From Pseudonocardia kunmingensis (GTDB lineage: Bacteria; Actinomycetota; Actinomycetes; Mycobacteriales; Pseudonocardiaceae), in NCBI RefSeq assembly GCF_006716445.1, contig NZ_VFPA01000002.1:992001-1056000 (forward strand): a stretch of 64,000 nt of DNA, read 5' to 3'. Position numbers and translations under genes: made by a program. The notes below the pieces were generated by a model, which worked only from the letters and a program-made list of their open reading frames with translations, did no database searches and was not told the origin of the DNA. Shown one piece after another: positions 3,394-63,281 of the stretch; within the stretch, counting starts at the first letter, position 1, and each line of letters opens with the position of its first letter.

Positions 3394-4497
3394 TCATGGG
3401 TAGGTGAGCTCGCTGGGCACGTCGTTGCCGATCCCGAGGAGCCCCTGGGCGCGTTCCAGGTAGGCGAGGTCGACGTGGGCCGCGAAGTCGAGGGGCTGCA
3501 GCTTCTGCGTCTCGATCGTGGTGTTCCACGCCTCCTCGCCGAAGTAGAGGTTCGGGCAGGTCAGATGCCCGTCGAGCACCCACGGGCCGTTCTGCACGCG
3601 CAGGTCTGCCACGTCGAAGCCGTGCTTCTCGTAGATGTCGAGGACGCTGTCCTTGTTCGCGGGGATATGCCCCGCGCCGGGAGCCACGATGTACTCGGCG
3701 GCCTTCATGGTCGCCCGCAGGAACCGCACCGCCGAGTTCGGGTTCTCGGCGAGCCAGCCGCTTCCGGCGATCTGGAGGTCGTTGGGCCAGTTCTGCAGCG
3801 ACTCCACGATGATCTCGGCCCCGTACTCCTCCAGGGCCGGGCGGTCGTCGCCGTAGAACGGGATGAGCGACACGCGGTCGGTCACGAAGAACTCGCGCCA
3901 CGTCGCGGAGTCGGGCCCCGGGTAGACGATCTCGGCGTCGACGCTGTCGAGGTCCCACCCGGCCTCCCGCAGCGCGAGCGCCCGCTGGAACTCGGCGGGG
4001 TCGCCGCTCGTGCCGGCGAGCACGACGTTGGTGCCGTTCAGCTGGTCGATCGCGGTGACGCCGGGTTGGGTGGCGAAGTCGAAGTTCTGCCGGCAGAAGT
4101 GCCCGGACAGGGCGTCGACCTCGACGCCGCCGCGGATCGCCTCGATGACCGAACCGGCGCTCTCCACCCCGACGTCAGCGCTGCCGCTCGAGACGGCCGC
4201 GGCCACGTTGTCGGCGGTGATGACCTCGACGGAGAGGCCTTCCTCGGCGTAGTGGCCCAGCTCGGTCCCGACGGCGTACATCGAGTGCATCGTGACGTCG
4301 GGGAACGGGATGGCGAGGGTGATCTGCGTGTCCTCGGCCGGCCCGGGCTCGCCCTGCCCGAGGTCGACGGGCGTTCTGGGCTCTGGGGCGCCGCTCGCGC
4401 AGCCGGCCAGGAGGGCGAGGACCGCCGCTCCGGCCACCGTGCCGAGCCGGGCTCGTGATGTCGACCTGCGCATGACCTTCCCACTTCCGGACGTCAT
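3394..4497 (-). CDS. ABC substrate-binding lipoprotein, NitT/TauT (SsuA/NMT1-like)
   Basis: Exported solute-binding lipoprotein of up to 367 residues. The N-terminus carries a basic stretch, a hydrophobic core and the lipobox LLAGC, so the mature protein is lipid-anchored on the outer face. The rest has the two-lobed SsuA/ThiY/NMT1-like fold, with openings such as TLAIPFPDVTMHSMYAVGTELG and an SGSADVGVESAGS ligand-pocket segment. An internal ATG at 4473 (MRRSTSR) preceded by GGGAAGG is an alternative start that would shorten the signal peptide by 8 residues. First gene of the leftward transport unit, with palindromic operator-like sites just upstream. Confidence 0.88.
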   Translation of the reverse strand: MTSGSGKVMRRSTSRARLGTVAGAAVLALLAGCASGAPEPRTPVDLGQGEPGPAEDTQITLAIPFPDVTMHSMYAVGTELGHYAEEGLSVEVITADNVAAAVSSGSADVGVESAGSVIEAIRGGVEVDALSGHFCRQNFDFATQPGVTAIDQLNGTNVVLAGTSGDPAEFQRALALREAGWDLDSVDAEIVYPGPDSATWREFFVTDRVSLIPFYGDDRPALEEYGAEIIVESLQNWPNDLQIAGSGWLAENPNSAVRFLRATMKAAEYIVAPGAGHIPANKDSVLDIYEKHGFDVADLRVQNGPWVLDGHLTCPNLYFGEEAWNTTIETQKLQPLDFAAHVDLAYLERAQGLLGIGNDVPSELTYP

Positions 4498-60480: not shown

Positions 60481-60968
60481 CGGGGCGACGGTAGTGGTGA
60501 TCCGCGCCTGCCGGTGGTCTCGACGTCCACGTGCGGGATGGACCGGCCGGAGTGGAAGTACCAGATGTAGGTGTCCGTGTGGGCTAGTACTCCAGCCGGC
60601 CTTCGTGATCTTGCCGGTCCCAGGGGTGCTGGGAACGTCGCGCGGCCACCGGGGCAAGGGTCGGACCGGCACCACAGCCAGAGGCGTGGCACCCGGCAGG
60701 GGCGTTCTCGTCGGAACCGGCCGGGGCCCGCGTCGGGGACGGCCGCCCGCGCAACCACGAACCAGCGCCGAGCCGCCCCCTTTCGCAGGTGAACGGAACA
60801 CCAGAGCTGTCCATGCAAGATCGAACAACCCTGGTGTTCCGCTCACCCGCAAAACTGGGACCTGCCCGGCAAGCATGATCCGAACTTTCGGTCGTCCATG
60901 GTCGTGATCGCAACCATGTGCACCCCGATACTGCCGATCATTGGGCGGGAAGATCGCGAGTATCGGTT
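60481..60968. other. Gene-free, palindrome-rich stretch before the intron
   Basis: 488 bp without a convincing gene. It contains the long inverted repeat at 60781-60854, a copy of GTCCATGGTCGTG (60894-60906) whose reverse complement returns at 63180-63192, and the 5' half of the hairpin broken by the intron. Confidence 0.5.
60781..60854. repeat. Long imperfect inverted repeat (24-bp arms)
   Basis: Arms 60781-60804 and 60831-60854 match at about 21 of 24 positions (core GGAACACCAG / CTGGTGTTCC, perfect) around a 26-base loop. There is no gene inside. It looks like a dispersed REP-like palindrome or a terminator relic; the open frames crossing it on both strands are by-products. Confidence 0.55.
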
Positions 60969-61591
60969 GTGCGCCACGAGGCGCTGTTGGTTCGGATGGA
61001 GGTGGGAGACCTTCGTGGCCCTGTCGTCGTAGCGGTGGGGTGAAGCTGGCGGCAGCCTGATCCGGGGATCGCCGGGGAGGGTGGGAGCAGCCGCGACAAA
61101 GTCGGGACGGCTCAGGACTGCCGGATGGGCCGGGCCCGGTGAGCGAGACGAGAAGGTATACGAGAGAAACCAGCGCTATTACGCCTCTTGACTCGCGGCC
61201 AGCTCGAAATCCGGTGGATATGGGCTGGGGTGCGGCGCGTACTCGGCTGCCGGTCGTGTCCCGGCGGGTGAGGAACTCCCGGCTGGTATGGCCGTGCCGG
61301 GTCCGGGAGGCCATGGTGAATGTCTACGGCGTAGCCGTGGCGATGCCGCAGGGGTACAGCTGGGTGCCTCACTCGTCGACCGAGCAACAGTGAACGTGGG
61401 AACCATCCGTGCGACGTTCCAGCAGGGTGCGCCGGCCAGGCGTGACGACCGCTGGATAGGTGCGATGCCGACCGAAGGGCCGGGTGGGGCGGAGCCGCCG
61501 TAGTACTCCGGGCCGGGGAAAGCCCGGCACACGGGGAAGGGCGGCAGCGTGTCGGGCGAGGATGCTGACTGCAAGGGACGGAGATACACCG

Positions 61592-63046
61592 GTGAATACT
61601 GGTGTCGTGGCTTGGCCGGATGTGGATTCGGCCGGGTTGGCGGTACGGAGGATGCAGCGCAAGTTGCACCGTTGGGCGAGCGAGGACCCGGCTCGCCGGT
61701 TTGATGATCTGTTCAACCTGGTCTATGATCCGGCGTTCCTGGTCGATGCGTTCACGCGTGTTGCCGGAAACAAGGGGGCGAAGACCGCGGGGGTCGACGG
61801 GCTGACGGTGGCCGCGGTCGATACCCGCATCGGAGTGGACGTGTTCCTGGGTCAGATCCGGGACTCACTCAAGACGCGTGAGTACCGGCCGTGTCCGGTC
61901 CGGCAGGTGATGATCCCCAAGGGCGGCGGCAAGCTGCGCCGGCTGGGGATCCCCACGGTGGCCGACCGGGTGGTCCAGGCCGTCGTCAAGGCGGTGCTCG
62001 AACCCATCTTCGAGGCGGACTTCCTGCCGTGCTCGTATGGGTTCCGCCCGAACCGGCGCGCTCAGGACGCGATCGCCGAGATCCACCACTTCACCTCCGC
62101 ACCCATCAACTACGAGTGGGTGCTGGAGGCCGACATCGCCGCGTGTTTCGATGAGATCGACCACGTCGCGGTGATGGACCGGCTGCGGCGGCGGATCAAG
62201 GACAAGCGGCTGGCGAATCTGGTGAAGGCGTTCCTGAAATCCGGGATCTTCACCGATCTCGGGGATCGGGAGGAATCACCGACCGGCACCCCGCAGGGTG
62301 GGATCCTCTCGCCGCTGCTGGCGAACATCGCACTCTCAGTGTTGGATGAACACTTCACCCAACACTGGGACCCGGCCACCGGGGCGATGGGCACCCCGGC
62401 ACGGCGGGCCGCGCGGAAACGTAACGGCAAGGGGAACTGGCGTTTGATCCGGTATGCCGACGACTTCGTGTTGCTGGTCTCCGGGGACCGTCACCACGCC
62501 GAAGCGCTCCGGGTCGAGGTGGCGGCCGTGCTCGCCCCACTGGGGCTACGGCTTGCCGAGGAGAAAACCCGGGCGGTGCACATCGACGAGGGCTTCGACT
62601 TCCTCGGTTTCCACATCCGGCGGATGCGGAAACGTGGAACGCAGAAGCGCTACGTCTACACCACACCCTCCCGCAAATCAACACAGAAGGTGCGGGACCG
62701 GGTGCGAGAGAAAACGAACAAGTCAAACCTGAACACCGACCTGGACGAGCTGCTCTCCGGGCTCAACCAGACGGTGCGAGGGTGGGCGAACTACTTCCGG
62801 CACGGGGTGTCCAAAGCGACCTTCAGCGCGGTCGACCACCACACCTGGTGGCGACTGGTCGGGTGGATCCGCCGCAAACACCCCAAGATCAGCTGGAAGG
62901 AGATCCGCCGCCGCTTCTGCGATCATGGCTGGCGGATCGCCCACAACGGGGTGGTGTTCACCGGCGCTTCCAGCGTCGCCGTGACCCGCTACCGCTACCG
63001 CGGAGCGAACATACCAACCCCGTGGACCCCAGCCCTCACAGGCTGA
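61592..63046 (+). CDS. ltrA: Group II intron reverse transcriptase/maturase
   Basis: A 484-residue intron-encoded protein that splices the intron RNA and copies it into DNA. RT motifs: GNKGAKTAGVDGL, RRLGIPTVADRVVQ, CSYGFRPNRRAQDA, GTPQGGILSPLLANI and the catalytic YADD in LIRYADDFVLLV. The maturase (GIIM/X) domain follows with LNQTVRGWANYFRHG. It ends soon after (YRYRGANIPTPW) with no HNH/CxxC endonuclease domain. GTG at 61592 (NTGVVAWPDVDSAG, the usual family beginning); an upstream ATG at 61562 is possible. Confidence 0.92.
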   Translation: MNTGVVAWPDVDSAGLAVRRMQRKLHRWASEDPARRFDDLFNLVYDPAFLVDAFTRVAGNKGAKTAGVDGLTVAAVDTRIGVDVFLGQIRDSLKTREYRPCPVRQVMIPKGGGKLRRLGIPTVADRVVQAVVKAVLEPIFEADFLPCSYGFRPNRRAQDAIAEIHHFTSAPINYEWVLEADIAACFDEIDHVAVMDRLRRRIKDKRLANLVKAFLKSGIFTDLGDREESPTGTPQGGILSPLLANIALSVLDEHFTQHWDPATGAMGTPARRAARKRNGKGNWRLIRYADDFVLLVSGDRHHAEALRVEVAAVLAPLGLRLAEEKTRAVHIDEGFDFLGFHIRRMRKRGTQKRYVYTTPSRKSTQKVRDRVREKTNKSNLNTDLDELLSGLNQTVRGWANYFRHGVSKATFSAVDHHTWWRLVGWIRRKHPKISWKEIRRRFCDHGWRIAHNGVVFTGASSVAVTRYRYRGANIPTPWTPALTG

Positions 63047-63067
63047 GCAACGGCCACGACATGCGGA

Positions 63068-63101
63068 GAGCCGGATGCGGTGAGAGCCGCACGTCCGGTT
63101 C
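63068..63101 (+). ncRNA. Group II intron domain V catalytic hairpin
   Basis: 34 bases with the classical form: GAGCCGGA pairs with TCCGGTTC (one G-U), then TGCGG pairs with CCGCA around a TGAGAG-type loop, with the two-base CG bulge at 63092-63093. It carries the catalytic AGC triad region at its base. It lies 21 bp after the maturase stop. Confidence 0.9.
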
Positions 63102-63281
63102 GGCGGGCGGGCACGGGAAACGGACCCGGGGCAACCCGGGCACCGCGCCCGTGTCCGACCCAACGTCCATCGCTGCCGCCACGACCATGGACAACCGATA
63201 TCGCGGATCATGCGCGGGACCACCACCGAACGGCCCCGGCCACCGCCGACACCCGTGGTCACGAAATCCGGCCCCAGCAAG

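Follow-up and report, generated by a model that had tools for sequence, protein, structure and literature searches.

The intron and its hairpin site

The window analysed here, a 64,000-nucleotide stretch of the Pseudonocardia kunmingensis genome (contig NZ_VFPA01000002.1, positions 992,001 to 1,056,000), contains a group II intron that interrupts one arm of a palindrome. The features of the locus are listed below in window coordinates, each with the evidence on which its placement rests.

60605-60968, resuming at 63165 and running to ~63272, + strand: noncoding part of a composite repeat, with the target hairpin as its last module
60877-60939, + strand: uninterrupted hairpin unit of the same palindrome family just upstream of the intron (match to the family model R1 at G000:C2:1052877-1052939)
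60952-60968, + strand: 5' exon, the left palindrome arm, GATCGCGAGTATCGGTT (sequence read directly)
60954-60961, + strand: IBS2, TCGCGAGT, bulged G included (positions -15 to -8 of the 5' exon)
60964-60968, + strand: IBS1, CGGTT (pairing with probable EBS1)
60969-63164, + strand: group II intron, GTGCG...CCAAC, 2196 nt (five identical copies; Rfam Intron_gpII)
61191-61198, + strand: EBS2, ACTCGCGG (covariation across 43-46 related introns)
61290-61294, + strand: probable EBS1, GGCCG (by eye, aligned loop near covariation peak)
61592-63046, + strand: intron-encoded protein, reverse transcriptase and maturase, YADD (RVT_1, GIIM, TIGR04416)
63066-63164, + strand: domains V and VI (Rfam RF00029, 51.4 bits; RNA fold)
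63165-63209, + strand: 3' exon, comprising the left-arm remainder, a 16-nt loop and the right arm (sequence, single-stranded DNA fold, stem scan)

A conserved 5' end, domains V and VI, a reverse transcriptase with maturase, and EBS/IBS pairing are all present in the intron. Its first bases, GTGCGCC, are common to most related introns with a located start, while 3' ends differ among them, several having GACCCAAC. The longest open frame runs from 61460, and the feature start given for the protein, 61592, is provisional. The protein matches TIGR04416 at 374.9 bits (cut-off 300); Pfam gave RVT_1 and GIIM only, with no endonuclease domain found, and the C-terminal end lies 43 residues past GIIM. 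Domain V is a 34-nt hairpin, its extent judged by eye, that opens with GAGCCG, the starting GAGC being taken by eye as an AGC triad. Its sequence features mark the element as a group II intron that has no endonuclease and falls outside the class C type.

The 3' exon consists of GTCCAT (63165-63170), the loop (63171-63186), ATGGACAACCGATATCGCG (63187-63205) and GATC (63206-63209). A first-pass annotation of this DNA had described a 14-bp perfect stem extended by five pairs past one bulged G, with a 16-base loop, and direct reading bears this out, with the bulged G at 60960; beyond a second bulged G (63206), GAT/ATC gives three extra pairs. The CGCGAG flank from which that description set out is present, but the start assigned to it, 60954, lies one base ahead of CGCGAG. 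With the intron removed in silico, TATCGGTTGTCCAT is the sole perfect stem of at least 14 bp in the window (loop 3-40 nt), and among 20 two-base-block shuffles 17 had no such stem and three had one. The 62-nt unit folds as single-stranded DNA at -21.6 kcal/mol (z -5.7), a value equalled by none of 200 shuffles. The composite repeat to the left of the intron contains a further hairpin at 60776-60859 of the window, with 35-nt arms that are 80% complementary.

Identical copies and empty sites

The 9.14-Mb genome (10 contigs) contains five full copies of the intron (L001-L005), each 2196 nt long, with 0 mismatches between them and with ends alike. Every copy splits its hairpin at the same point, with GATC[G/A]CGAGTATCGGTT ahead of it and a G following. 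Three (L001-L003) lie in composite repeats, and the other two (L004 and L005) in lone hairpins with different arms, loops and flanks. At E<=1e-100 the intron is found in 8 of 60 genomes (this one, 35 of the genus and 24 of the order), elsewhere at 67-70% identity only; the best protein match is 69% among 80 named loci, from which records of the same or very near genomes may be absent. Because the copies are identical and matches outside the genome reach only 67-70%, their spread within it was probably recent, and the five identical copies suggest recent mobility. The 62-bp units of L001 and L003 are identical and their composite flanks similar, so that one insertion may have been moved by recombination; four or five insertion events would then account for the five copies. 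A second group II intron of the genome (L006, G000:C2:1450232-1452395, minus strand) is 69% identical to the present one over most of its length. It lies in what, read by eye, is presumably a protein-coding gene of the 13E12/HNH type, and no hairpin was seen by eye at its site.

The first-pass annotation took the hairpin to define both splice sites with single-base precision, and the four other copies and the uninterrupted units agree. It also proposed comparing other copies, for which differing ends would have counted against its reading; their ends proved to be the same, and their targets are hairpins of this one palindrome family. Units with the same arm and no intron occur elsewhere in the genome, and at the L005 locus a related genome (G010) carries the unit uninterrupted, aligning at 90.6% identity over the 171 bp that span the junction. 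The 3' flank of L005 matches that genome at 93% over 1.2 kb, and the 5' side aligns to ~20 bp above the junction. By this alignment, from one relative at one locus, the empty unit sets both intron boundaries independently, and it forms the hairpin, as do the uninterrupted units; an empty site unable to fold in this way would have been the second point against the annotation. For the L004 locus, the gene aligns in relatives and the alignment ends ahead of the hairpin. Another dispersed repeat of ~45 bp lies at the L005 locus (L005, ~4431-4471), with both strands matched at the same places; it is present dozens of times in G029 and in G010.

The palindromic repeat family

The covariance model R1 was built from 13 units of this same genome, which therefore match by construction. 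It matches at least 43 separate places in the genome, among them 3 halves of interrupted units; this count is a lower bound because 150 of 15639 candidates were scored. We read 40 distinct uninterrupted units. Across the 60 genomes R1 has matches in 8, three of these with one or two weak matches, and five genomes of the genus, including this one, have 49-89 matches each (both strands; 89 candidates scored per genome). A crude gene call puts 21 of 22 units between genes, and within 150 bp of the units there are 17 3' ends and 9 5' ends of genes. From their distribution, the units appear to be short dispersed extragenic palindromes with a REP-like look. One half unit (L215, G000:C2:200312-200327) keeps the full linear target, has no right arm and is empty.

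A search of 11 named actinobacterial genomes at E<=1e-6 did not find the repeat, and its composite form was not found in plasmids. The composite form reaches ~1 kb in another species of the genus (G021), where a noncoding example (L147:1048-2030) has inverted repeats of 228 bp and, after them, two hairpin units; five loci of it were aligned in that genome, and a 90-bp module of it occurs at 12 places. Two accounts of the palindrome itself were considered and found unsupported. Mobilisation by a RAYT-type Y1 transposase (PF01797) is one, since that domain is absent in four of the five repeat-rich genomes (G000, G010, G029 and G033) and present once in G021. The other is conservation as a base-paired RNA, for which 79.6% of cells were paired and no measure exceeded shuffles.

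Recognition of the site

From 80 related loci we kept the 45 that had a GTGCG start and a trusted 3' end. We dropped loci that began with different letters, lay on cut contigs or had ends that were absent or uncertain, as well as one duplicate, and some 3' ends were shifted by one base to improve the fit. These 45 introns, both ends of which were thus located, were aligned together with L006, and every aligned position was scored for its pairing with the 5' exon of the same intron, with shuffled exons as control. One of the related introns, from Micromonospora veneta (L095), lies by eye apparently within tRNA-like sequence.

A pairing peak at 61190-61199 marks EBS2, with z up to 11.5 (43-46 introns) against less than 5 at unrelated positions, values that are inflated because the related introns share ancestry and some also a site family. 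EBS2 was thus located from covariation among related introns, independently of the site in the window, and it pairs with IBS2 over 8 bp, 7 of them Watson-Crick and one G-T. The EBS1 peak lies at 61291-61297 (z 7.7), where our intron is out of register and scores 1.5 of 6; GGCCG was picked by eye beside this peak with the target in view, and it pairs with IBS1 through 3 Watson-Crick and 2 G-T pairs. Our first guesses, TACTCG (~61240) for EBS2 and GACCGA for EBS1, had been made on complementarity alone, and we abandoned them when covariation pointed elsewhere. Class C-type targeting is rejected, given the 8-bp EBS2-IBS2 pairing and the insertion within the arm. The earlier description of an endonuclease-less intron, not of class C, inside a stem is borne out by this pairing and by the Pfam domains.

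The same pairing distinguishes occupied from unoccupied arms. Among the 80 arms of 40 units, with 9 that have no anchor motif left out and the other arms of occupied units excluded, the five occupied arms score 10.5-11.5 and the 71 unoccupied arms average 8.9 (p=0.0008); six unoccupied arms, at 11.5-12.0, equal or exceed the best occupied ones. By coordinates, all 18 occurrences of CGAGTATCGGTT in the genome lie within the palindrome family, the reversed control having 0. Units with CGAGTATCGGTT are occupied in 5 of 15 cases and units without it in 0 of 30 (p=0.0025; 40 uninterrupted and 5 occupied units, the 15 and the 30 counted by hand). Because every copy of CGAGTATCGGTT is in the palindrome, pairing of EBS with IBS along the linear sequence suffices to bring the intron to this site.

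For pairing between exons, the final 25 nt of each 5' exon were set against the 70 nt that open the 3' exon and compared with 200 shuffles. The 45 related introns have energies no better than expected by chance (mean z -0.13, sd 1.08), with one site of 45 having at most 2 of 200 shuffles as good. The five copies have z of -1.8, -4.2, -2.6, -4.8 and -5.7, the part of the stem internal to the 3' exon being uncounted. Their longest exact complementary runs are 8, 9, 8, 9 and 12, against at most 8 in the relatives, of which 10 of 45 have runs of at least 7. This slightly exceeds the ~13% of permuted controls, and the crude run-length test points, less cleanly, in the same direction as the energies. 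Nine further related introns were taken from the genus and the order; in three of these both ends could be read, and the runs there are 4, 5 and 6 long.

Probable recent retrohoming and its rivals

We think it very probable, from comparisons that are all of sequence, that a mobile endonuclease-less intron recognising its site through EBS1 and EBS2 has recently retrohomed into the arm of a dispersed palindrome within one genome. The target would be one arm of the 62-bp palindromic repeat, whose examined units lie mostly between genes. A particle of intron and protein would bind this arm through pairing of EBS2 with TCGCGAGT and of EBS1 with CGGTT, and would reverse-splice ahead of a G. Because the intron has no endonuclease, we propose that first-strand synthesis is probably primed at the replication fork, as reported for RmInt1, and the inserted intron would then be able to splice. 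The main value of the stem would lie in what a palindromic repeat offers: many target copies, harmless places, and either strand.

It could be argued that the intron recognises the folded hairpin, as a cruciform or as a stem-loop at the fork, as well as its sequence, and all five copies do lie in stems. Of 162 sites with up to one mismatch, the 16 exact ones, with full EBS pairing and a G at +1, were analysed; they are occupied in 4 of 10 cases in hairpin units and in 0 of 6 outside, and the half unit without a right arm (L215), one of those six, is empty despite its complete linear target. However, this difference has p=0.12, and insertions at the non-hairpin sites may have been purged, because four of the five others lie in gene-like frames and the fifth, L214, less clearly so. 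The exons of our own copies do beat shuffles in most cases, but those of the 45 related introns pair at chance, the unit around L002 is a weak hairpin (z -2.2, with 6 of 200 shuffles equal), and at the site of L006, also in this genome, no hairpin is seen by eye. A stem role for IIB introns is speculated on in the available text of PMC7923331. On balance we consider recognition of the fold unlikely. To our knowledge, structure-assisted targeting is known only from class C introns.

Under a second alternative the intron inserted only once, the copies then having been spread by movement of the palindrome or by recombination, with no retrohoming. The copies are indeed all identical and all within the repeat, and L001 and L003 sit in the same unit sequence, with composite flanks that resemble each other. 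Against this, an identical intron is found in units that, at L002, L004 and L005, have arms and loops different from those at L001. L004 and L005 are solitary hairpins with other flanks, and G010 has the L005 unit without the intron. The differing units around an identical intron appear largely to refute a single insertion, which we regard as very improbable. By the pairing results, linear recognition suffices for placing the intron. The hairpin is best read, on these comparisons, as a multicopy DNA target. The first-pass annotation had supposed that the intron chose or tolerates a position in the stem. That the intron sits in the stem stands; choice of the stem itself does not follow, since the palindrome is a dispersed repeat and linear pairing is enough.

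The genome offers a clean natural experiment, with five identical copies and 40 uninterrupted units of graded EBS match. Full linear targets occur within hairpins and also outside them in this single genome, which makes any benefit of a stem-loop outside class C directly testable.

Comparison with known systems

Searching by title and abstract opening, subscription papers aside, we found no literature on the present palindromic repeat or intron. Insertion within a stem, which had been called notable, is so, and it has precedents: the REP introns of Pseudomonas putida, RmInt2 in ISRm17, and IIB introns by attC sites. Several of the comparisons below draw on partial texts of the sources cited.

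Group IIC introns, whose targets include terminator and attC hairpins, resemble the present intron in having a hairpin at the insertion site. In that group, according to the available text of PMC7923331, the hairpin stands in for IBS2; here, by contrast, IBS2 pairs with EBS2 and the insertion is within the arm. The same text reports a CGC triad for IIC domain V, as opposed to the AGC read by eye in the present intron. It also describes endonuclease-less IIB introns that adjoin attC stem-loops in halophile integron and CALIN arrays, one lying directly after an attC or attC-like site and two others being truncated, and it states that no role of upstream structure has been reported for IIB introns.

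Endonuclease-less RmInt1 reverse-splices into single-stranded DNA at replication forks, by the accessible parts of PMC5894124 and PMC8914252. It is like the present intron in having no endonuclease domain, in EBS/IBS recognition and in a repeated mobile target. RmInt1 belongs to IIB3, class D, and its natural target is ISRm2011-2. In P. putida KT2440, 2 of 9 group II introns are REP-associated (PMC1525189, in the part available), an association with dispersed extragenic palindromes that the present intron shares; here, in contrast, 5 of 5 full copies are at one arm position.

In target geometry the present intron resembles RmInt2, also a mobile group II intron that uses inverted-repeat arms as targets. 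In the accessible text of PMC5894124, RmInt2 targets both inverted repeats of ISRm17, and use of both arms is said to guarantee at least one target on the lagging-strand template. The targets of RmInt2 are the ends of an insertion sequence, whereas that of the present intron is a free dispersed 62-bp palindrome. The dispersed palindromic repeat acts as a multicopy harbour for this intron, much as IS ends are for RmInt2.
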